A stretch of DNA of 64,000 bases from Tepidanaerobacteraceae bacterium. Lineage in GTDB: Bacteria; Bacillota; Thermosediminibacteria; Thermosediminibacterales; Tepidanaerobacteraceae. Below the pieces are notes generated by a model that was not told the DNA's origin, did no database searches, and was given only the letters and a program-made list of their open reading frames with translations. Shown one piece after another: positions 1-10,336 of this stretch (positions are counted from its first letter, which is position 1; the number at the start of each line of letters is the position of its first letter). The stretch covers positions 62,001-126,000 of the forward strand of contig JANLFP010000003.1 of assembly GCA_024655905.1 (NCBI GenBank), given 5' to 3'. A program made the translations under genes and the position numbers.

Positions 1-797
1 AAGGGTATTGAAGCCTCCATAAAATGCACCGGCTGCTGCGGTTCGCCCTGGGGAACGGAAGCCACGTAAAGAACTCCTACATCAAGGGTGCCCTCGATGA
101 TGACCTTATCGCGAATCACTTTTGTATCGGTATCCTCAACTTTGCCTTCGACTCTCACGATTTCAAGAATATCCGGCTTTGCCTCTGGCACAGACACATC
201 GCTTTTTACTATGGCCTGGTCCCGGCCTTCACCTACCACATCATCGATGCTCAGAGACTTCTTTAATACCTGCAGATCCTCGGGGCCGGTGGCATCAACC
301 ACTATTTCGATCTTCTCCCTTTTGGTAACCTTTACAAAAAATTCCACTATGATTCTTACCTTTATCTCTCTCGGCCTGTTGGGATCAAAGCTGACCATTA
401 CGAAACGATCGTGATGGTCGTGATGATCATGATGGTCGTGATGGTCATGCTCGATTTTGGCCTTTACTCTGACATCCATGTCCTTCCTTGCTCCGGGAAT
501 CTTTACGAAAAAGCTGAAATCCACGCTGCTTTCCACGAAGTGGACCGGTTGCGTGCCTTCCGGCACCGCTCCAACATACATGACATTTACATCAAGTTTT
601 CCTTCTACTATGACCTTGTTTTCTATTATGTCGGTTTCGAGGCTCTCGGTGTCCAAAGTGGCATGAGCAGAAATGACCTGTTCTATATCCGGCTTACCAT
701 TCGGCAGTGTAATAGTTCCTTCAACAATGGTCTGAGTCTTGTCTTCTCCAATTACCTGGTCGACTCTCACCAGCTCTTTTGTGAGTTGTACGCCCAT
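1..797 (-). CDS. SPOCS/DUF3794-domain protein, SipL-like, C-terminus cut by window edge
   Basis: An open frame starts at ATG 797 behind AAAGGAGG (about 804-811) and runs 265 codons to the edge without a stop. The protein contains repeats of the type found in spore-coat-associated SipL/DUF3794 proteins: paired beta-rich stretches such as VIVEGKLDVNVMYVG and VIIEGTLDVGVLYVA, each followed by PVHF. In clostridia, SipL anchors the coat morphogenetic protein SpoIVA to the forespore surface; that role is inferred from the family. The carboxy-terminal LysM domain expected of SipL would lie outside the window, so SipL itself cannot be confirmed. Odd feature: residues about 117-131 form a His/Asp-rich run (nine His, five Asp) between the repeats. 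A nearby spore protease gene (yabG) fits a spore-coat role. Confidence 0.8.
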   Translation of the reverse strand, partial: MGVQLTKELVRVDQVIGEDKTQTIVEGTITLPNGKPDIEQVISAHATLDTESLETDIIENKVIVEGKLDVNVMYVGAVPEGTQPVHFVESSVDFSFFVKIPGARKDMDVRVKAKIEHDHHDHHDHHDHHDRFVMVSFDPNRPREIKVRIIVEFFVKVTKREKIEIVVDATGPEDLQVLKKSLSIDDVVGEGRDQAIVKSDVSVPEAKPDILEIVRVEGKVEDTDTKVIRDKVIIEGTLDVGVLYVASVPQGEPQQPVHFMEASIP

Positions 798-880
798 TTA
801 CATCCTCCTTTCTCAGAAAAGTGCATATTCATGCTTATATCCTTACTCTTATATAATATATGTGAAGCTTGCCAAATATG

Positions 881-1210
881 TTACATTTTTATTTCTTGGG
901 ATTGCTCAGGCGACTGTTTTTCTTTTTCATCGACATCCCTTGCAGCATCATCTTTCTCATCTTTCTCATCTTTTTCTTTCGTATATTCTTCAGACTTTTC
1001 AACGGGTTCTGGCTGATCAGGCTGCACGTTCCCGGGATCCTGGGGCCCTTCTTCCGGAGGCGATTTTTCAGCCTCATCATGTTGTTTTTCTTCAAAGTGC
1101 GATTTTTCTCCAGGAAATATTAACCGGTCTTCATTGAAAAGTTTCCTTAAAAAAAGATAGAAGACTATCAGGGCTATTCCTGCAATCACTATAAAACTCA
1201 AAATCTGCAT
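881..1210 (-). CDS. Small membrane-anchored protein with acidic/lysine-rich tail, unknown function
   Basis: The protein is 109 residues. The start was placed at ATG 1210 because AAAGGAGG lies seven bases upstream; an in-frame TTG at 1231 has no such site. Residues about 2-22 are a single hydrophobic segment (ILSFIVIAGIALIVFYLFL). The remainder is a highly charged, low-complexity tail rich in Glu, Asp, Lys, Pro and Gln, likely disordered and either cytoplasmic or exposed. No domain is recognised. It is transcribed toward the SPOCS gene 83 bases further on, so the two might be co-expressed. A membrane tether or scaffold is possible, but nothing in the sequence assigns a function. Confidence 0.6.
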   Translation of the reverse strand: MQILSFIVIAGIALIVFYLFLRKLFNEDRLIFPGEKSHFEEKQHDEAEKSPPEEGPQDPGNVQPDQPEPVEKSEEYTKEKDEKDEKDDAARDVDEKEKQSPEQSQEIKM

Positions 1211-1320
1211 GATACCCCTCCTTTCCCTCAATGTCTAGATGGATCGTTCCCCCTCAAGCATAAACATTGCAACCAGTCTCAATATTATAATATGAATTGA
1301 TCGCTCGGGAAGTTCGGAAT

Positions 1321-1350
1321 AAAATAAAAAAAAAGAGGCTTATAGCCTCT
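1321..1350 (-). terminator. Intrinsic terminator after the CAP-domain gene
   Basis: On the minus strand AGAGGCT and AGCCTCT pair (1344-1350 with 1334-1340) around a three-base loop, followed by nine T and further AT-rich sequence. It lies 65 bases beyond the CAP gene stop. Confidence 0.85.
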
Positions 1351-1414
1351 CGACTTATCCACATTATGAACATGTTATCAACAGGAAATTCACAAACCAT
1401 GCCGCTGAAGAAGA

Positions 1415-2143
1415 CTATTTTATTCCTATGAATGTCTGGGTGAACATCTTGCCGTAAGGTCCTCCGTCAATTATGCCGATGCCCACATAATTATAATTCG
1501 GATTCAATATATTGGCCCTGTGCCCCGGACTCGCCATTAATGCCTTGTGGGCTTCTTCCACGGTGGCGGCGCCCGCCAGATTCTCCCCCGCATATCTGTA
1601 GCTTATGCCGTTCGCTTTCAGGGCATCAAACGGGGTGCCGTATGTAGGCGATGTATGACTGAAATAATTTTTATCTATCATATCTTGGCTCTTCTTTCGT
1701 GAAATTTCTACCAGCCTCATGTCGATTTTCAGCGGTTCGACGCCGGCTTTTTTCCTCTCGGCATTTACCAGGTCCAGCATTTTCTGCTCGTCAGCGGTAA
1801 GTCCTTGTACGGATATCTGGTCCGCAGTTCTGCCTGCATTGTCTGCAAGAGCCGACGTCCCCTTTGCAGAATCATTATCAGAAGGGGCTGCATTGCTATT
1901 GTATTGGCCGCCCTGGAAAGTCAAGACCCACTTGCCGTCTTTATAAGTGTAAACATACCTGTAAGTCTTCGCGGAATCCGGGGTGGCGTTATTGCTTGCG
2001 GGAATCTGAATCGTCTGAGTATTGCCGTTGATGGTGAGCGTCACATGATAATATGAAGCGGCGCTGGCGATTGCGGGTATGGCGAGGATAAACACCAGCA
2101 GAATTGCTGTAAAGATGTTTTTGCGATTTAAAAACACGTTCAT
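1415..2143 (-). CDS. Secreted CAP/SCP domain protein (YkwD family)
   Basis: The protein is 242 residues. Residues 1-28 form a signal peptide (MNVFLNRKNIF, then a hydrophobic core ending AIASA). A linker rich in Thr, Asn and Ser follows. The C-terminal half (about 113-242) is a CAP domain: it has ML.LVN.ERKKAGV, the SHTSP loop, YRYAGENLA and MASPGHRANILNP, the usual bacterial YkwD signature. CAP proteins of spore formers are extracytoplasmic; some are found in spores, but their chemistry is not settled. ATG 2143 is preceded by GGGAGGT. The gene is a single unit between its own promoter (2192-2220) and terminator (1321-1350). Assignment to the family is sure; the role is not. Confidence 0.88.
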   Translation of the reverse strand: MNVFLNRKNIFTAILLVFILAIPAIASAASYYHVTLTINGNTQTIQIPASNNATPDSAKTYRYVYTYKDGKWVLTFQGGQYNSNAAPSDNDSAKGTSALADNAGRTADQISVQGLTADEQKMLDLVNAERKKAGVEPLKIDMRLVEISRKKSQDMIDKNYFSHTSPTYGTPFDALKANGISYRYAGENLAGAATVEEAHKALMASPGHRANILNPNYNYVGIGIIDGGPYGKMFTQTFIGIK

Positions 2144-2191
2144 TACCTCCCTGGTTTTTTTAATTTGGGCGTAGACGGAAATGCTGGTATG

Positions 2192-2220
2192 ATTATAACA
2201 AAATCGACAAAATTCGACAA
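2192..2220 (-). promoter_or_regulatory. Sigma-A type promoter for the CAP-domain gene
   Basis: On the minus strand TTGTCG (2220-2215) and TATAAT (2197-2192) are separated by 17 bases. The CAP start is 49 bases downstream. Confidence 0.65.
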
Positions 2221-2249
2221 TTGCTGAGTCCGCAAAAATGCTTCAATTT

Positions 2250-2283
2250 AAAAAGCAGGGCCATTTTAAATAGAAATCCCTGC
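2250..2283 (-). terminator. Intrinsic terminator downstream of the trypsin-like protein gene
   Basis: On the minus strand GCAGGG (2283-2278) pairs with CCCTGC (2260-2255), followed by TTTTT. It stands about 190 bases after the stop at 2471, beyond repeat copy A. Confidence 0.7.
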
Positions 2284-2426
2284 CTTTTATCATAATAATT
2301 TTCTATTATGTTTAAAAAATTGCCATCATGGTTAATTTATCCTAAAGTGACATTTTCCCCGGCGTCAAGCGATCACGGCTCATGCTCTTGGGTTTTTTAC
2401 AATGAACAATCCCTAAAACATGAAGT

Positions 2427-2476
2427 AATATTTTGGTTATCTGTTGGTGATGCACTTGCATCATGCATGTTTAAAA
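2427..2476 (+). repeat. Intergenic hairpin repeat, copy A
   Basis: This is one of four copies in the window (others at 45412-45474, 47343-47410 and 50407-50460). The shared core is GGTGATG, a short loop, then GCATCATGNATG. Here TGATGC (2448-2453) pairs with GCATCA (2458-2463). The right end overlaps the stop codon of the trypsin-like gene (2471-2473): the position that reads TAG in the other copies reads TAA here. Confidence 0.8.
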
Positions 2477-3475
2477 AGTTATTTTCAATAATTTCATCAC
2501 GTTTGCTATGGGGTTTATGATGGTGGCCTGATCGGAGCCTGCAAACAGCAGCCCCACGGCGTTCATGTTTTCGTCCACCACAATTGACCCGCTGTCCCCC
2601 GGCTGCGCCATAGGGCCGGTGAGTATCTGCTCGCAAAATGCGGCTTCCTCGGAAGGCCCCAGCATGACTTTTAGCCGCACATCCAGGGCTTTTATGCTGC
2701 TTTCTGTTATACCGCTGGTGCGCCCGCTCTTTTTTACAGTCATGCCTATTCGCGGCTCCACGGTCCCCTTTATCTTCCCCAAATCGAATATATCCTGCAG
2801 AATGTATTCGGGCTTTACGGGTTTGGCCACCGCCGCATCTATGAGATTATATGAATTGTTGTTTTTTACAAAATGCATCCGGTAATTGGGTTTCACCATT
2901 TTCAATACGGCATTGGCCGCCTTCTCAACTCCCCTTGCTATGGGACAGCGGTCCTGGCCGCTGCTCTTTGTAATCGGCACAAATCGCTCAAGGCTGGCTA
3001 TCACATCGGACATGCTTCCACCATCGTACGTCCCGGGCTGCAGGATGGGATCGCCAACGGCGGACTTGCCGTCTTTTCCGTCGGTGGCATTGGCCAGCAC
3101 GTGGTTATTGGAAAGAATAAGGGGTTCCCCGGTTTTCTCATCCCTTACCACGGCTCCAAAAGTTCCTGCAGTAACTTTGAAGTGCCCTATGCTCATGCCT
3201 GGGCGTGCGGGTCTTGCCTTTTCAGTCCTGGATGAAAGCAGGCGGATTTCGCCCACTTCAATCACGTCGGTGGGCACTTCATTCAACGCTTTGGGCACCA
3301 CATGCTTTGATTTCAACTGACCTTCAGGATATTTCCTCTTTACCAGCACCATCACAGCCGGTTTGTTTGTAGTCCTGCCCCGCACAATTTTGTATCCCAT
3401 CCCGATGCCCACAACATTGTCTAGGCTCATGAGCTTTTTCTCATACTGTCTCAGCAGTCTCTGGATTCTTTCCAC
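2471..3475 (-). CDS. Trypsin-fold serine protease-like protein, Nal1-type, no signal peptide
   Basis: The protein is 334 residues, with a GTG start at 3475 behind GGGGGAAG. A plausible catalytic triad is visible: His125 in LSNNHVLA, Asp213 in LIDAAVA, and Ser295 in PGDSGS. Residues 1-60 form a separate N-terminal region (VVGIGMGYKIV, then VMVLVKRK) typical of the Nal1-like family of bacterial trypsin-fold proteins. There is no signal peptide or membrane segment, so the protein is predicted to be cytoplasmic (or inside the spore), unlike HtrA-type proteases. It lies downstream of veg, separated by the veg terminator. Substrate and biological role are unknown. Its stop codon lies within repeat copy A. 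Confidence 0.8.
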   Translation of the reverse strand: MERIQRLLRQYEKKLMSLDNVVGIGMGYKIVRGRTTNKPAVMVLVKRKYPEGQLKSKHVVPKALNEVPTDVIEVGEIRLLSSRTEKARPARPGMSIGHFKVTAGTFGAVVRDEKTGEPLILSNNHVLANATDGKDGKSAVGDPILQPGTYDGGSMSDVIASLERFVPITKSSGQDRCPIARGVEKAANAVLKMVKPNYRMHFVKNNNSYNLIDAAVAKPVKPEYILQDIFDLGKIKGTVEPRIGMTVKKSGRTSGITESSIKALDVRLKVMLGPSEEAAFCEQILTGPMAQPGDSGSIVVDENMNAVGLLFAGSDQATIINPIANVMKLLKITF

Positions 3476-3540
3476 TCAGCTTCCCCCTCTCCGTATTAGC
3501 CGCTACTATATATATATTTGAGAAGGGGGGAAATTGTGTA

Positions 3541-3569
3541 AAAAAAAAATAGCCCTTTTTCAGGACTAT
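3541..3569 (-). terminator. Intrinsic terminator of veg
   Basis: On the minus strand ATAGTCC (3569-3563) pairs with GGGCTAT (3555-3549), with one G-T pair, and is followed by a run of T. The stem overlaps the veg stop codon. Confidence 0.85.
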
Positions 3570-3841
3570 GCCGAGCCGAACTTGATTTTTTGTTCACCTT
3601 TGGAACATACGGTGAGTTCCACCGTGTCCGTCAATATATCCGAATAACTGTATGAGATGCGCCTCACAAAATCCGGAGATTCTGTCACCTTAACCACGAA
3701 GATGTTCGGATATACTTTTTCCAGTATGCCTTCCTTTTCAAAGGTCTTTTTACGGCCACGGTTCGCTTTGAGTTTTACCTTCTTGCCCACGCAGGATTCA
3801 ACGCTCTTTCTGATTCTGCCCAGTGCATCCGCCGAAGCCAT
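3566..3841 (-). CDS. veg: Veg family protein
   Basis: The protein is 91 residues, starting at ATG 3841 behind GAGGTGAG. An upstream in-frame start would add 21 residues overlapping the promoter and was rejected. The sequence matches the small Veg/DUF1021 family: an N-terminal helix (ALGRIRKSVESCVGKKVKLKA), a basic GRKK stretch, then a compact beta region with FVVKV and SYSYSDILT. In Bacillus subtilis, Veg stimulates biofilm matrix gene expression and is expressed from a very strong promoter next to the yabG region; both the context and tandem promoters recur here. The molecular mechanism is not well defined. Confidence 0.93.
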   Translation of the reverse strand: MASADALGRIRKSVESCVGKKVKLKANRGRKKTFEKEGILEKVYPNIFVVKVTESPDFVRRISYSYSDILTDTVELTVCSKGEQKIKFGSA

Positions 3842-3875
3842 AACCTCACCTCTCAAAATACAAAATACAATGTAT

Positions 3876-3904
3876 ATTATAACATCAGCAAAGCCCTTTG
3901 TCAA
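3876..3904 (-). promoter_or_regulatory. veg promoter, proximal copy
   Basis: On the minus strand TTGACA (3904-3899), exactly 17 bases, then TATAAT (3881-3876): a perfect sigma-A consensus, 35 bases before the veg start. Confidence 0.9.
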
Positions 3905-3914
3905 ATATTATAAT

Positions 3915-3943
3915 ATTTTAGCAAACAAAATGTTTTTTGTCAA
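3915..3943 (-). promoter_or_regulatory. veg promoter, distal copy
   Basis: On the minus strand TTGACA (3943-3938), 17 bases, then TAAAAT (3920-3915). It lies in tandem with the proximal promoter, the two -10 elements 39 bases apart. Confidence 0.8.
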
Positions 3944-3964
3944 TCAATCAAATACATTAAATAT

Positions 3965-3995
3965 GGGTCTTCCAACGGGAAGACCCTGTTTTTTT
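3965..3995 (+). terminator. Strong hairpin with plus-strand T-run between the SpoIID fusion and veg
   Basis: GGGTCTTCC (3965-3973) and GGAAGACCC (3978-3986) pair perfectly around AACG, with seven T at 3989-3995 on the plus strand. All neighbouring genes are on the minus strand, where the hairpin is followed only by ATATTTAATG, a poor U-tract. It may act in both directions, or it may stop antisense transcription. Confidence 0.6.
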
Positions 3996-3999
3996 GCCA

Positions 4000-5451
4000 T
4001 TAATCCTGGTAATATGACAGTATGCCTTCGATTATTGCTGCGGCAGCCTTCTGCCTGAAATCGGGCTCCGAAAGCAGCCTTTCTTCTTCGGGATTGCTCA
4101 AGAAAGCCACATTTATCATAACTGAAGGATTGTTGGTTTCCCTAAGCACATACAGGTCCGCTTCCTTGGCTCCCAAGTCGCGGAGCATCAGCGCCAGCAC
4201 CAGGTTTTTCTGGATGTGCTCCGCAAGCCTCTTTCCTTCCGCATCTCCGGGATAATAGAAAGTTTCGGTTCCGCCCATCTTATCATCGCTAAAAATATTC
4301 TGATGTATGCTGATGGTAATATCGGGCTTGACATCATTGGAAAACCTTACTCTTTCCGCCAGACTTTTAAACTCGTTCTTATCCCTGGTGAGATATGCTG
4401 TCGCTCCTTCCTGCTCAAGGCAATCAGCCAAAACCCTTGCTATTTCCAGATTCACATATCCTTCTGAAAGCCCCATTGGGCCGGTGCTGCCGCTGTCCCC
4501 GCCATGCCCCGGGTCCAGTACGATGATTTTTCCCTTTAGGGGCTTAGATGATGTGGGTTTTTCTAGGGTTCGAATTTCGGCCCCAGTAAAGTAAAATTTG
4601 AGTATTTCATCAACAGGAAAGCCCAGAAGAGCCATGCCCCTTGCGCCGTACTGGCACATGCCAAGGCCGTGTCCCATGCCCATGACCTGAAAAGAGACGC
4701 TGGATACTTTCCATGCAAAGCGGGTTGACGGCAGGTTCAACAGGTTTCTGACTTCATCTCCGTCAAAAAGCATATCGCCTATTTTCACGCTTTTTATGCG
4801 GCCTGCCGCAGTGCTGCTTATTTTGTGTATCAACCCCGGAATCTCTATTTTATCCACCTGATGGTCGTCAAAATTGATGCCCAGTCTTTTTTTGAGCTCC
4901 CTGATCGAGAAAGTCCTGGTGGTCTTCCAGTAGGGAGAATCCTTGCAGTATATGCATTCCACCCGGCGGAGATAGCTTACCCTGTTTCCCCAAACGTTTT
5001 CGGAATCCTCTGTATACCCCCCGCAGGCGGGATGAAAAACGGCTTCAATCGGATTGTCATTATACACCAGCACCATTCCCCGGGTCTCGTCTACAGCCTG
5101 CCGTATTTTTTCGGTATACTCTTCATAGCAGCTATGCCAGATCTTCTGCCGTTCATCCTCATCCAGAAAACCCTGGCAGTGATCGGGATCGCTGCACACG
5201 TCAAATTCCTGCTGCCTCCTGCATCCGCTGCCCCCGAATATTCGCGCGCGCTTTGCCGCCAATGTGCGGCAGCAGATAGCCTGAGCCTTCAGGGCTTCCC
5301 TGGGGAATTCCGGGGGCATGCTCGCCGCCACTGCACCAACCACGTATTCTTCCATGTCCACGATGCGGGCTTCCTGCTTCTGGCAATTAAACAATTTTAT
5401 TCTCAACATCTCGGATTCCTGTATCATGAAGACCACCACCCGATTTATCAT
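4000..5451 (-). CDS. SpoIID/LytB domain fused to N-acetylmuramoyl-L-alanine amidase domain, both lacking a catalytic Glu
   Basis: The protein is 483 residues. Residues about 15-290 are a SpoIID/LytB lytic-transglycosylase domain (EEYVVGAV, EALKAQA, HPACGGYTE, GMGHGLGMCQYGA). Residues about 305-483 are an Amidase_3 domain with zinc ligands His316 (DPGHGG), Glu330 and His383 (SIHQN). Family knowledge places a catalytic Glu in the EMP motif of SpoIID; here the residue is Ser44 (AASMP). It places the amidase catalytic Glu before GFLSN; here it is Asn447 (VMINVAFLSN). Zinc-binding residues are kept, so binding without cleavage is plausible. No signal peptide is seen. The ATG at 5451 overlaps the yabG stop by four bases; ATG 5427 or 5409 are alternatives and keep both domains. 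Confidence 0.85.
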   Translation of the reverse strand: MINRVVVFMIQESEMLRIKLFNCQKQEARIVDMEEYVVGAVAASMPPEFPREALKAQAICCRTLAAKRARIFGGSGCRRQQEFDVCSDPDHCQGFLDEDERQKIWHSCYEEYTEKIRQAVDETRGMVLVYNDNPIEAVFHPACGGYTEDSENVWGNRVSYLRRVECIYCKDSPYWKTTRTFSIRELKKRLGINFDDHQVDKIEIPGLIHKISSTAAGRIKSVKIGDMLFDGDEVRNLLNLPSTRFAWKVSSVSFQVMGMGHGLGMCQYGARGMALLGFPVDEILKFYFTGAEIRTLEKPTSSKPLKGKIIVLDPGHGGDSGSTGPMGLSEGYVNLEIARVLADCLEQEGATAYLTRDKNEFKSLAERVRFSNDVKPDITISIHQNIFSDDKMGGTETFYYPGDAEGKRLAEHIQKNLVLALMLRDLGAKEADLYVLRETNNPSVMINVAFLSNPEEERLLSEPDFRQKAAAAIIEGILSYYQD

Positions 5452-6311
5452 TCATATGGAGAACGGGGCAGACCCTCCCGGAACTTTCCCCGGGTCTCAA
5501 CCCCTCCGATGCCTTTTATTCCCGTTATAGTGGCATCTATGACATCTTTGGCGGAAATTATTTTGTTGATGGGAGTATATGCCACTTTCTCTATTATAAA
5601 CACCGGATCCAGGGCATGTATGAAAACTCGGTGGGGAGAGCTTGCAAAATTGGCCCCCGCGCGCAGTATGCCTTCATAATGGGATTGGCACGCACCTGCA
5701 AATATTACAAGGTCATCCAGGGACGGTTCAAATCTTCTAGCCACTTTCACCGATTCTATAAAATATTTGGAATGCCTGTAACTGTCTATATCGTTGAAAT
5801 TCCTGTTGTTCCTGATAAGACCATCGTGTCCGGTAATAACCAGGATGTCGGGGTTATATTCTATCAAAAGTTGGGCGAGCTTCCTGTGCTGTTCCTTTTC
5901 CTGGATGCAAACGCCATGCGCTGGGATTCCAAGCTGCCTGTAAGTGGTCATGCACAGCTCCAGGTATTCCTCATCGCCATCAATGTGAAGAACCGTCCCC
6001 GGAACATCAAAAAAACCGTTGTTATCGATGCTCTCACCCCGGGAAAAGCGCTGCTGCTTCTCCAGTTCCCTTCTGTAAAAAATGCGCTCCATGGACTCGT
6101 TGCTTTTTTTTATATATTCCCTCTTGTAATCCCTGATTTCGGCAGAAGACGGCAGGATCAGATCATCTATGGGTGCGTCTGCGAGCACTCTAACGTTTAA
6201 TCCTTTCAATGCCGCATATTTTCCATCCGGATGAATCTCCACCACCTTGAAAAAGACATCCCTGCCGTAAGACAGCCGGGTGACCACGTCGCCTATCTTG
6301 ATATCCGCCAA
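5448..6311 (-). CDS. yabG: Sporulation-specific cysteine protease YabG
   Basis: The protein is 287 residues from a TTG start at 6311, chosen because a GGGGGG ribosome site lies about six bases upstream and the family begins ADIKIGDVV; the open frame extends further without homology. YabG processes coat and cortex proteins during spore maturation, and in Clostridioides difficile it trims CspBA and SipL. The expected dyad is visible: His162 in ITGHDGL and Cys208 in FAGACQSHYEG. The N-terminal 55 residues form a small SH3-like barrel. It is translationally coupled (ATGA) to the SpoIID-amidase fusion, suggesting expression in the mother cell. A divergent glycosyltransferase gene begins 98 bases upstream. 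Confidence 0.95.
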   Translation of the reverse strand: MADIKIGDVVTRLSYGRDVFFKVVEIHPDGKYAALKGLNVRVLADAPIDDLILPSSAEIRDYKREYIKKSNESMERIFYRRELEKQQRFSRGESIDNNGFFDVPGTVLHIDGDEEYLELCMTTYRQLGIPAHGVCIQEKEQHRKLAQLLIEYNPDILVITGHDGLIRNNRNFNDIDSYRHSKYFIESVKVARRFEPSLDDLVIFAGACQSHYEGILRAGANFASSPHRVFIHALDPVFIIEKVAYTPINKIISAKDVIDATITGIKGIGGVETRGKFREGLPRSPYE

Positions 6312-6409
6312 GATTATCCCCCCTTTTAAATATTTCACAGCATCCGGCTTTATTACATAATATGAAATTATCAGGGGGGATGTGAGCAACAAAAATGGGG
6401 TGAAAAAAA

Positions 6410-7198
6410 ATGAATATAGCCGTGGTTCCTGCAAAGAACGAGCAGGGAAGAATTGGAAAAGCGCTTGCAATGCTCGGAAAATCAAAAATCGATAGAATAA
6501 TCGCGGTAGTCAACGGCTCAAGAGACAATACAATGCGCGAAATTAAATCATTAAAAATGCCCAATGTGGAAATAATCTATTTTAAACCCGAACTCGGCAT
6601 AGATATCCCCCGGGCCATTGGCGCTTACAGGGCTTTTAAGGATGGGGCGCGTTCCGTAGTGTTTGTGGATGGAGACATGATAGGAAATATACCGGACCAT
6701 ATTGACAAACTCATATCTGCAGTAGTGGACGGCGGGGTGGATCTGGCCATGGCCGACTGCTATCCGGAGAATATTCGCGGCAATGAGCTCGCCCATCAAC
6801 TGCTGATATTCCGCAAACTGCTGAATGTAAACCTCGGAATATACCGGAAAGTGGGGGTGGCCACCCCTTCCCATGGCCCTCATGCGGTATCCCGCAAATT
6901 GCTTGAGAAAGCCGATTTCAGGGACTTCGCAGTGCCTCCCGTTATTCTGGCTTTCGCAGTAAAGCACGCCCTCACCGTGAAAACAGCCACCAGCCTGCCT
7001 CAAAACAAGATGGGTTCCAAATCCAGAGGCTTTTACCACGCTGCCATGATAGCCGAAACCATCATTGGCGATTCCCTGGAGGCCCTGAATTATTTCAACG
7101 GCAGGCCCAGAAAGCGCATATATCTTTCCAGGGAGTTCCAGGGATACAATCCGGAAAGGCGCTTCGACATTCTCGAAAGATACCTTGAAAAAAATTAA
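6410..7198 (+). CDS. Family 2-like glycosyltransferase
   Basis: The protein is 262 residues, ATG 6410 behind GGGGTGA. The fold signature is a GT-A nucleotide-diphospho-sugar transferase: an N-terminal beta strand with PAKNEQGRIGKAL, VNGSRDNT, then FVDGDM with the metal/nucleotide-binding D87-G-D89 motif. No membrane segment is visible, so it is probably cytosolic. Sugar donor and acceptor cannot be read from the sequence. Transcribed divergently from yabG and closed by a terminator at 7200-7221, it is a single-gene unit. A role in spore-surface glycosylation is possible from context only. Confidence 0.82.
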   Translation: MNIAVVPAKNEQGRIGKALAMLGKSKIDRIIAVVNGSRDNTMREIKSLKMPNVEIIYFKPELGIDIPRAIGAYRAFKDGARSVVFVDGDMIGNIPDHIDKLISAVVDGGVDLAMADCYPENIRGNELAHQLLIFRKLLNVNLGIYRKVGVATPSHGPHAVSRKLLEKADFRDFAVPPVILAFAVKHALTVKTATSLPQNKMGSKSRGFYHAAMIAETIIGDSLEALNYFNGRPRKRIYLSREFQGYNPERRFDILERYLEKN

Positions 7199-7199
7199 A

Positions 7200-7221
7200 G
7201 CCGGAGATAATCCGGCTTTTT
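7200..7221 (+). terminator. Intrinsic terminator of the glycosyltransferase gene
   Basis: GCCGGA (7200-7205) and TCCGGC (7211-7216) pair around GATAA and are followed by TTTTT; the stop codon is two bases upstream. Confidence 0.9.
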
Positions 7222-7231
7222 ATATCATAAT

Positions 7232-7322
7232 GGATTTGCTTTTGGGGCAAATCCTACCTAATCTGATCTCAGACCTCTTCGGTGTTCAAGATTCCATATG
7301 GAATTTGCGAATCGCAAATTCC
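7232..7322. repeat. Two inverted repeats between convergent genes
   Basis: GGATTTGC (7232-7239) pairs with GCAAATCC (7247-7254). A perfect 23-base palindrome follows, GGAATTTGCGA (7300-7310) and TCGCAAATTCC (7312-7322) about a single central A. Neither has a T-run. They lie between the glycosyltransferase terminator and the ykuK stop. Function unknown. Confidence 0.6.
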
Positions 7323-7352
7323 TGCTTAATCCGATTTCCGACATCTGACATC

Positions 7353-7823
7353 CTACTTGGTGTATTTGTCCGCAACCTTCGTGGCTCCGCACGCATTAGG
7401 CTTTATTTTAATTTTAAAACCGCTGCCCATGACCCACCCCACCACTTCCCGGATGAGCTCTTTTGTCTCTCCGTTCTGGCCGATATCCACATGGACTTCC
7501 ACATCCATGTCCTTATAGCGGGTTTTGCCGAGTTCCTCCTTGAGCTGGGTTACCGCTTCCAGGGACAGCGATGTTTCCGTGAATATTTTATGGCGAAGAT
7601 TCCTAACAGCAGACATGAACTTGCGCCTGTAATAGTAGCGCGCTCCCTTGCCAACCCGGTGCACTATGATGGCGGTGACAAAACACACATTGTCGCGCGC
7701 CTGGGAGTCGGTGCCTATTATCAATTTATATGAGGCAGAAGGCTCCTCTTCCATAAAAGCTATCATATCCCTGACCACTTCGGAAAGGGGGAGTCTCCCT
7801 TTTGTGGGGCTTACGAAATGCAT
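7353..7823 (-). CDS. RNase H-like YkuK family protein (DUF458)
   Basis: The protein is 156 residues, ATG 7823 with GGATGGG upstream. It matches the YkuK/DUF458 family, an RNase H-like fold: LIIGTDSQ near residue 35 holds the first acidic residue, followed by FVTAIIVHR, EVHVDIGQNGETKELI and a C-terminal GFKIKIKPNACGATKVADKYTK-type ending. No biochemical activity is established for the family, although a role in sporulating Firmicutes is often noted. It is separated from rsmA upstream by 176 bases with no recognisable gene. Single-gene unit, convergent with the glycosyltransferase gene. Confidence 0.88.
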   Translation of the reverse strand: MHFVSPTKGRLPLSEVVRDMIAFMEEEPSASYKLIIGTDSQARDNVCFVTAIIVHRVGKGARYYYRRKFMSAVRNLRHKIFTETSLSLEAVTQLKEELGKTRYKDMDVEVHVDIGQNGETKELIREVVGWVMGSGFKIKIKPNACGATKVADKYTK

Positions 7824-7999
7824 GGAAATCCCATCCTTAAAACAGCAAAAGTTATTATATGTATAAAACCCCTTCTACCCCTTAATTAGAAGTGAGAGGC
7901 GGGAAATCATCCTCGCGCTTCATCTTCCATATTCTTATTATCTTTAATCTCGATTAAAGGCACACCAACATCGCCAAGGCCTGATTGCAGCCTGGCTGC

Positions 8000-8839
8000 T
8001 TAATTGCGGAGCAATGCCGCGAGTCTTGCGAATTCTTCGATGGATAATGTCTCGCCGCGGCGCGCAGGGTCGATGCCCGCTTTTTCAAGGGCATCGTCAA
8101 TTTTATCAAGGGATATGCCGCAAAGCGCAAGCCTGTCTTTCAGAGAATTTCTCAAAATCTTTCGTCGATGGCCGAAAGCCGCCTCCACCACTTCGAAAAA
8201 CACAGCCTCGTCTTCCAGTTTCACCCGGGGCTCATGCCTAAATATAATCCTCACCACGGCCGAATCCACCTTCGGCGGAGGAACAAAAGCTTCACTGCCC
8301 ACTTCGCATACGATGTCCACATCGGCATGAAGTTGCACCGCGACGGATAAAATGCCGTAATCTTTTCCCCCCGGGAGCGCCGTGAGCCGCCGTGCCACCT
8401 CTTTTTGCACCATGATCACCGCTAGCTTCACCAAACAGCGGCTTTCCACCAGCTTCATTATGATGGGGCTGGTTATATAATACGGAAGGTTTGCCACCAC
8501 CTTGAAATCCGACATAAAATATCTATTCTTCAACAGCTCTAAATCTAATTTTAGCACATCTTCTTCAATAATACAAATATTTTCGAAAACGCCGACCCTG
8601 TTTTTCAAAGCGGGGATTAAGTCCCCGTCCTTTTCTACGGCAGCAACTTTTTTTGCCCGCCGGCACAGCTTCTCCGTAAGCGCGCCGAGCCCTGGCCCTA
8701 TCTCCAGCACGCAATCCTCGGAGGACAGTTCCGCAGCTTCAAGAATAGCGGCAATCGGCCTTTCATCCATCAAGAAATGCTGCCCGAGGCGTTTATCAGC
8801 TTTTATGCCGTATTTTCTCATTATCGATTTAATATCCAT
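8000..8839 (-). CDS. rsmA: 16S rRNA dimethyladenosine transferase RsmA (KsgA)
   Basis: The protein is 279 residues, starting at ATG 8839 behind AAGGGGTAG; a longer frame to 8905 overlaps the upstream gene and lacks a ribosome site. RsmA dimethylates two adjacent adenines in the 3' hairpin of 16S rRNA, a late 30S assembly checkpoint. Visible motifs: KRLGQHFL at the N-terminus, the SAM-binding LEIGPGLGALT, EKDGDLIP, EEDVLKLDL and the NLPYYITSPI motif that contacts the target adenine, with a C-terminal four-helix region. It follows the radical-SAM gene (stop at 8842) almost directly. Loss of this enzyme usually gives kasugamycin resistance. Confidence 0.97.
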   Translation of the reverse strand: MDIKSIMRKYGIKADKRLGQHFLMDERPIAAILEAAELSSEDCVLEIGPGLGALTEKLCRRAKKVAAVEKDGDLIPALKNRVGVFENICIIEEDVLKLDLELLKNRYFMSDFKVVANLPYYITSPIIMKLVESRCLVKLAVIMVQKEVARRLTALPGGKDYGILSVAVQLHADVDIVCEVGSEAFVPPPKVDSAVVRIIFRHEPRVKLEDEAVFFEVVEAAFGHRRKILRNSLKDRLALCGISLDKIDDALEKAGIDPARRGETLSIEEFARLAALLRN

Positions 8840-8841
8840 CT

Positions 8842-9432
8842 CTACCCCTTGATGTAATGCCTCACTCTGAACTCCACCCCGAGTTCTTCGGCCAGTCTGC
8901 GGCATTTTCCCACATCGATGTAAGGAAGGTCCACCACTGATAAAACCACCCGCGGAACATGACTTTTACATTTCCGGGCAAATTCCAAAATGGAATAATA
9001 TGCCTCCTCGCCGTAGTCCGAATGGCACAACTCCTGATACTTTTCGGCATTCTCGGCATTCAGGCTTATGGAGATTGTATCTATCAACCCCTTGAACTGG
9101 GGAGTCACATCTTCGCCGTATATCAGGTTTGCCTGTCCGTTGGTGTCTACGCGTATTTTCACATCCGGATAATTCTTTTTAATGTGCATGGCCACATCCA
9201 GTACGGTCTGAAGCCGCATGAGGGGCTCTCCGTATCCGCAAAAGACCACCTCTTTATACCCCGAAGGATCTCCGATGGCCTCGATTATTTCTCTTGAAGT
9301 GGGTTCCTTTTCCAGCCATAGATTATATCCCCCCACTCCCGGTCCGTTCTGCCTTATGCAGAAGCCGCACCTGTTCGTGCACCTGTTTGTAATGTTGAGG
9401 TATAGGGAATCGCCCAATCTGTATGCTATCAT
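8842..9432 (-). CDS. TatD-associated radical SAM protein
   Basis: The protein is 196 residues. ATG 9432 sits behind GGACGG; a GTG three codons earlier is too close to that site. The CxxxCxxC cluster motif is Cys18, Cys22, Cys25 (RCTNRCGFC), followed by the GYGEP motif and VDTNGQA, as in elongating-pyruvate-lyase/activase-like radical SAM enzymes. The family is known for linkage or fusion with TatD nuclease, and tatD is the next gene upstream here. Its reaction is not established. It is short, lacking a long C-terminal extension, and is followed directly by rsmA, suggesting one transcript tatD-rSAM-rsmA. Confidence 0.88.
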   Translation of the reverse strand: MIAYRLGDSLYLNITNRCTNRCGFCIRQNGPGVGGYNLWLEKEPTSREIIEAIGDPSGYKEVVFCGYGEPLMRLQTVLDVAMHIKKNYPDVKIRVDTNGQANLIYGEDVTPQFKGLIDTISISLNAENAEKYQELCHSDYGEEAYYSILEFARKCKSHVPRVVLSVVDLPYIDVGKCRRLAEELGVEFRVRHYIKG

Positions 9433-9454
9433 TTTTTGCACCGTCCATATTTTT

Positions 9455-9476
9455 TAAAATAACAACTGTTATTTTA
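9455..9476. promoter_or_regulatory. 22-base palindrome upstream of the radical SAM gene
   Basis: TAAAATAACA (9455-9464), AC, TGTTATTTTA (9467-9476): perfect ten-base arms. It lies 23 bases upstream of the radical SAM start and 78 bases after tatD. It does not match an operator I can name; it may be a regulator site or a weak hairpin. Confidence 0.5.
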
Positions 9477-9553
9477 GCATAAATAGCGGAAAATCACAAC
9501 TTCGGCCTCGGCTTGCCGCTGTTTCGTGCTGATTTATAAGTTTTTTCGAGCTG

Positions 9554-10336
9554 TCAACGATTCCGCCCCCCGGTCAATGTCAACCTGCCGAACAGGTTCC
9601 GAACGTTCGATGCGGTAGCCCGCTCTATTTCTTCTATTGAAACGCCCCTCAGCTTCGCCAGTGCGGAGGCTATTGTCTCTATCTCTGTGGGGTCGTTCCT
9701 TTTTCCCCTACGAGGTTCCGGCGAAAGATAGGGGCAGTCGGTCTCCAGCAGGATTTTATCAAGTGGCAGTTTGGATGCCGCTTGTTTGGGTCTGCTTGCG
9801 TTTTTGAATGTAATTGTTCCTCCGAAGGAAAAATAAAACCCAATCTTCATGAATTCTTCCGCCATCTCGAGGCTTGCTGAATAGCAGTGCATCAGGCCTT
9901 TTTTTACGCCGGACTTCTGCAATATCTCCAGCGTATCCCTGTGGGCTTCCCTGTCGTGGACCACTACTGGAAGGCCCAGTTCCTTAGCCAGCTCCAGCTG
10001 CTCAGCGAACACCTTTTTTTGAATCTCTCTATCGCAGAAGTCATAGTGGTAATCCAGGCCTATTTCACCTATTGCCAAAACTCTTTCATATTCTGCCAGT
10101 TGTTTTAATGTTTCAAGATAATTTTGTCCCGCTTTCGCGGCTTCATGCGGATGTATCCCTACGCAGGCGTATATGAAATCATGCTTTTGAGAAAGTTCCA
10201 CCGAAAATTTGCTGGTTTCAATGTTGGAGCCCGCATTGATTACAATCATACCCTTTTCCCGAATTTTCTTCATCACGCTTTCCCTATCGCCGTCAAACGC
10301 TTCGTCATCCAGATGGGCATGGGCATCGATGAGCAT
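9554..10336 (-). CDS. tatD: TatD family metal-dependent DNase
   Basis: The protein is 260 residues, ATG 10336 behind GGAGGAG. TatD/YabD nucleases are TIM-barrel hydrolases with 3'-5' exonuclease activity on DNA and RNA, acting in repair and RNA turnover. The metal ligands appear in order: the N-terminal DAHAHLD, AIGEIGLDYHYD (Glu and Asp), VVHDREAH (His), MHCYSAS (His) and LETDCPYLSP (Asp). The length is typical. Its place directly downstream of metG is the same as in Bacillus subtilis (metS-yabD). Confidence 0.95.
   Translation of the reverse strand: MLIDAHAHLDDEAFDGDRESVMKKIREKGMIVINAGSNIETSKFSVELSQKHDFIYACVGIHPHEAAKAGQNYLETLKQLAEYERVLAIGEIGLDYHYDFCDREIQKKVFAEQLELAKELGLPVVVHDREAHRDTLEILQKSGVKKGLMHCYSASLEMAEEFMKIGFYFSFGGTITFKNASRPKQAASKLPLDKILLETDCPYLSPEPRRGKRNDPTEIETIASALAKLRGVSIEEIERATASNVRNLFGRLTLTGGRNR

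Follow-up and report, generated by a model that had tools for sequence, protein, structure and literature searches.

A yabG-adjacent SpoIID–Amidase_3 fusion lacking both catalytic glutamates: a candidate double pseudoenzyme of the spore envelope

The open reading frame at 4000..5451 (−) of the window (the whole 64 000-nucleotide stretch of the Tepidanaerobacteraceae bacterium genome analysed here) encodes a SpoIID domain fused to an Amidase_3 domain, each with another residue at the position of its family's catalytic Glu. On balance we favour reading this protein as a conserved double pseudoenzyme of a late mother-cell yabG operon, a former amidase plus lytic transglycosylase that would now serve as a non-cleaving binder or scaffold of the spore envelope. 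The frame is 483 amino acids long and residues are numbered here from the ATG at 5451. A GGTGGTG-like ribosome-binding site precedes codon 9 (ATG 5427) in most members of family f1 and some of family f2, which together form the order containing the window, and in-frame stops lie just upstream of this ATG in some orthologues; translation therefore probably starts at 5427, so that the likely gene (4000–5427) would encode about 475 amino acids and the true numbering would be Ser36 and Asn439 for the residues called Ser44 and Asn447 below.

Pfam matched SpoIID at residues 27–130 of the frame (PF08486, above cut-off) and Amidase_3 at residues 310–478 (PF01520, 161 bits). The SpoIID half spans residues 17–297 (4561..5403, −), with a TIGR02870 match (the NCBIfam SpoIID equivalog) at residues 11–294 that scores above its cut-off (289.3 bits) and an alignment to solved SpoIIDs from about residue 18. 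The amidase half spans residues 308–481 (4009..4530, −), as delimited by the Pfam match, a structural model and a fold match to CwlD (7rag_B), and at 145.7 bits it does not reach the cut-off of the CwlD equivalog TIGR02883 (221.55). An Rfam scan of positions 1–10000 of the window returned no RNA family match.

Both substitutions named in the preliminary description were confirmed by alignment. Ser44 (codon 5320..5322, −), said to occupy the place of the catalytic Glu of the EMP motif, aligns without gaps with that Glu in the solved SpoIIDs 4rwr and 5i1t (E101 in Clostridioides difficile), and Asn447 (codon 4111..4113, −) aligns with the Glu that precedes GF(I/L)(S/T)N in solved amidases (E199 in C. 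difficile CwlD), within an ungapped conserved motif that reads GFLSN in the window protein. The catalytic Glu is kept in all three other SpoIID proteins and all four other Amidase_3 proteins of the same genome, as well as in 80 of 80 related phage amidases (51 by pattern, 29 by eye), and on these alignments the losses in the fusion exceed what chance would give. Short SpoIID-like proteins were also seen in viral contigs (L045–L062), several of which keep the catalytic Glu and lack the middle of the domain; no SpoIID–Amidase_3 fusion was found in the viral contigs at the sensitivity used.

The zinc sites of the window protein are largely intact. The amidase ligands His316 (4504..4506, −), Glu330 (4462..4464, −) and His383 (4303..4305, −) are all present, as the preliminary description had it, although this holds for the window protein and not across the order. 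The same description had the SpoIID Cys/His residues remaining, which is correct for C86, H91 and C92 (5176..5196, −), the counterparts by alignment of the C. difficile zinc residues C140, H145 and C146 (roles from PMC6221140), but not for the position of C. difficile H134, which is Gln80 here. The fusion thus resembles SpoIID in its whole SpoIID/LytB domain and in these three zinc residues, and differs from it in the replaced Glu, the missing anchor and the fused amidase. The canonical SpoIID of this genome is a separate gene (L002) with both anchor and Glu, which scores 382.9 bits with TIGR02870; judged by score, anchor and Glu, the fusion is not the spoIID orthologue.

The predicted structure of the amidase half (pLDDT 95.6) matches CwlD 7rag_B with Z 29.1 and rmsd 1.1 over 177 residues, and solved amidases generally with Z 29–31, so that a complete Amidase_3 fold is predicted, with Asn447 in a strand at residues 443–450. 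The structural model covers the amidase half only, and phage SpoIID homologues were placed by MAFFT on the amidase half; a full-length AlphaFold2 model built from two sequences was discarded (pLDDT 34.7). In its predicted fold and three zinc ligands the window protein is like CwlD, CwlV and AmiC, from which it differs in having Asn for Glu and in the erosion of the zinc ligands in sister lineages. Mutants of the same residues indicate what such replacements cost: in C. difficile SpoIID, E101A abolishes activity, although the protein keeps its zinc and gains heat stability (PMC6221140); CwlD E199A fails to sustain germination but remains in spores, where it binds GerS (PMC8496864); and CwlE E151A has no activity (PMC10565116). 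The window protein is thus very likely not a wall hydrolase, an estimate and not a measurement.

A full or partial fusion was found in 25 of the 26 genomes of the class, where families f3, f4 and f5 bear it besides f1 and f2, and outside the class it is borne by f72; the loci compared include DUMA01000028.1 ('Thermoanaerobacterales bacterium'). Outside the class, a sample of 398 genomes of the phylum yielded a full-length fusion in G253 alone, and a search of its order added G422, of the same genus (distant family f72). Both Glu are intact in five members (G253 and G422 of f72, G022 and G023 of f3 and G025 of f5), of which G023 has Tyr for the amidase ligand H316. Both are absent in every readable member of f1 and f2. 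What is fixed across the order is the loss of the two acids and not the residues Ser44 and Asn447 themselves: position 44 is Ser in f1, except for Ala in the partial G002, and Ala in f2, while position 447 is Asn except for His in G011 and Phe in G014 (unreadable in G002). Among the fusion members C86 and C92 never vary, and H91 is replaced by Cys in f3 alone. The inactive clade also has a set of new and fixed residues, including two acids in the SpoIID half, E48 and E111.

Several members show further variation. G024 (L029, family f4) is a separate second degeneration, with Gln at 44, all three amidase zinc ligands lost and Glu kept at 447, and G021 (L030) carries an in-frame internal deletion by which residue 147 is followed by about residue 264, either a real one or an assembly artefact. 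At the N-terminus, an AMIN domain is present in G253 (L036, 1713–3482, −) and absent in G422 (L038) of the same genus, and Cu_amine_oxidN1 is found there in other families; by this comparison of domains the N-terminus of the fusion is a swappable site.

In the IQ-TREE tree, f1 and f2 form one clade (support 100/100, branch length 0.53), and the minimum number of changes is one at position 447, two at 44, five at H316 and three at H383; several terminal branches are long and placements within f2 are less sure. On this tree both Glu losses map to the stem branch of f1 and f2. The losses had been described as independent, and while both acids are indeed gone, their position on one branch means that they need not be unrelated. 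The amidase zinc ligands H316 and H383 were, by the same mapping, eroded afterwards and repeatedly in sister lineages, which argues that catalysis is not being selected; within the order, only the genus of the window and a near relative (g5) keep the full zinc triad. Values of dN/dS were 0.04–0.18 for either half in seven inactive pairs and 0.12–0.13 in an intact f72 pair, with dS near saturation in some pairs, and divergence of the fusion relative to YabG was about 1.2–1.7 times in inactive pairs and 1.1–1.8 times among members with both Glu. By these ratios both halves of the fusion are under strong purifying selection.

The preliminary description had also pointed to the missing transmembrane anchor. 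Its absence is real (maximum 19-residue hydropathy 0.98, vs 3.04 in the canonical SpoIID), but hydropathy showed no transmembrane segment in any fusion member tested, and G025 and G022, which keep both Glu, are among these. An anchor is thus missing from active-looking members too, and its absence is uninformative on activity.

The fusion adjoins yabG, encoding a sporulation protease (5448..6311, −; TTG start at 6311; identified by Pfam and NCBIfam), whose stop overlaps the ATG at 5451. This adjacency holds in every fusion locus examined, and veg (3566..3904, − in the window) then follows wherever the locus reaches, giving a conserved yabG–fusion–veg order. In C. difficile and Bacillus subtilis yabG is followed by veg (PMC10681294), so that the fusion gene lies between the two members of a conserved sporulation pair. 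Genomes throughout the class carry, downstream of veg, a gene with a weak NAL1_N match (2471–3475, − in the window); in the loci of G253 and G422 this gene was not found, and its place is taken by a SipL/SPOCS-domain protein.

Upstream of yabG we found a candidate sigma-K-type promoter element, CACA-N16-CATATTATG (6356..6384, −), and every f1 and f2 genome has CACA or AACA-N16-CATATTATG about 53–59 bases ahead of yabG. Shuffles of single sequences match the score of the element in 0.5–11% of trials, and its weight therefore rests on this conservation; in the whole genome there is a single match to CACA-N16-CATATTATG. The element fits a −35 AC and a CATA-type −10 (consensus from PMC3789822), the −35 AC being a feature of sigma-K and not of sigma-E promoters (PMC3789822). 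This promoter, the gene order and the overlap or close spacing with yabG would place expression of the fusion late in the mother cell, as part of the yabG operon. G012 lacks the fusion together with YabG, SpoIIP and SpoIVA, a single co-loss event. On both strands of 6336–6384, two back-to-back sigma-K-like elements share a palindromic −10 (CATATTATG / CATAATATG) and point to yabG and to the gene at 6410; the pattern searched, picked after the yabG site had been seen, has two matches in the window vs 0.07 expected. The divergent gene (6410–7198, +) is a glycosyltransferase-like ORF, a guess from its sequence, and L036 and L038 of the distant family have a similar ORF in the corresponding position.

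A two-step wall enzyme in a single chain accounts well for the ancestral fusion, since SpoIID requires glycan that an amidase has already stripped (PMC6221140). The ancestor was probably an active enzyme of the yabG operon, without a membrane anchor, whose amidase half would strip stem peptides and whose SpoIID half would then cut the denuded glycan. In the ancestor of the order both catalytic Glu were lost and both domains kept, and the placement of both losses on one branch could be because, once one step had gone, selection on the remaining one would be relaxed. Today the protein would most likely bind peptidoglycan or act as a scaffold in the spore envelope, in coat or cortex, without cleaving the wall, with selection most simply read as keeping the glycan- or partner-binding capacity of two folded domains. 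The complete zinc triad in the window's genus and g5, and a sporulation co-loss with n = 1, count against this explanation. A further step, in which the pseudoenzyme reads or clamps amidase-processed cortex glycan and so controls YabG-dependent coat assembly or germination, is put forward only tentatively and we regard it as rather unlikely.

The intact His316, Glu330 and His383 could point instead to a surviving enzyme, in which slow amidase activity comes from the zinc site by itself or another acid replaces one or both Glu, and the newly fixed E48 and E111 might seem suited to the latter. E48 was rejected as a substitute acid, the aligned residue being already Glu in C. difficile SpoIID, whose E101A form is inactive; CwlD and CwlE mutants in the Glu are likewise non-functional, and sister lineages have lost zinc ligands while conserving the gene, so we consider residual catalysis improbable. 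The continuing change of those ligands, the one genome without the gene and the in-frame deletion in G021 might be taken for decay or for faulty assembly. Full-length open frames persist across the order, however, at the low dN/dS given above in both halves, the promoter element and ribosome-binding site are conserved and the same losses recur in about 20 separate assemblies, which makes a decaying gene or an artefact very improbable indeed.

A regulator or adaptor deserves more weight, though we would still bet against it: the inactive domains might bind another protein, be it SpoIIP, YabG, a coat protein or a spore amidase that is active, and switch it on, inhibit it or position it with no need for peptidoglycan, and residues newly fixed in the inactive clade could form the interface. 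Precedents exist in the Amidase_3 homologue CwlM, which is cytoplasmic and activates MurA when phosphorylated (PMC4946905), in SpoIIQ of B. subtilis, which binds SpoIIIAH through an inactive LytM domain (PMC4982068), and in the reported stimulation of SpoIIP by inactive SpoIID (Morlot et al., as cited in PMC6934232). Conservation after the losses fits such a role equally well, but glycan binding predicts the same conservation. The earlier suggestion of a wall-binding structural or regulatory protein in place of a hydrolase thus stands in its non-hydrolytic part, the best reading with both halves under selection, while the role itself may be structural or regulatory.

The non-cleaving binder or scaffold that we favour has partial parallels among known systems. 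Mycobacterial CwlM (PMC4946905) is similarly an Amidase_3 homologue with degenerate zinc residues, no secretion signal and a non-enzymatic role, but it has no SpoIID half, acts on MurA in growing cells and is not a sporulation gene. SpoIIQ (PMC4982068) is likewise a sporulation protein, with a catalytic His of its wall-hydrolase domain replaced by Ser in one lineage and with clostridial orthologues that are intact; unlike the fusion, it is a membrane protein with a LytM domain and acts in engulfment. TftA of Nostoc punctiforme (PMC10710843) combines two wall-hydrolase domains, with His and Glu of its Amidase_3 site replaced, whereas its other domain, a glucosaminidase, retains the Glu and its role is in cyanobacterial filament shape. 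Among the matches listed in the open-access literature on SpoIID and spores, no mention of Amidase_3 was found.

For annotation the fusion is a trap, as the NCBIfam SpoIID equivalog model matches every fusion member tested and the genuine SpoIID here is another gene. The intact orthologues in sister families provide natural controls for the inactive fusion, and one syntenic gene with apparently active and apparently dead versions lets the question be put directly of what selection keeps after catalysis goes. If our reading is true, it would add to the pseudoenzymes of sporulation a case where two wall-hydrolase domains were both inactivated along one branch, as would be expected if SpoIID depended on the product of the amidase.
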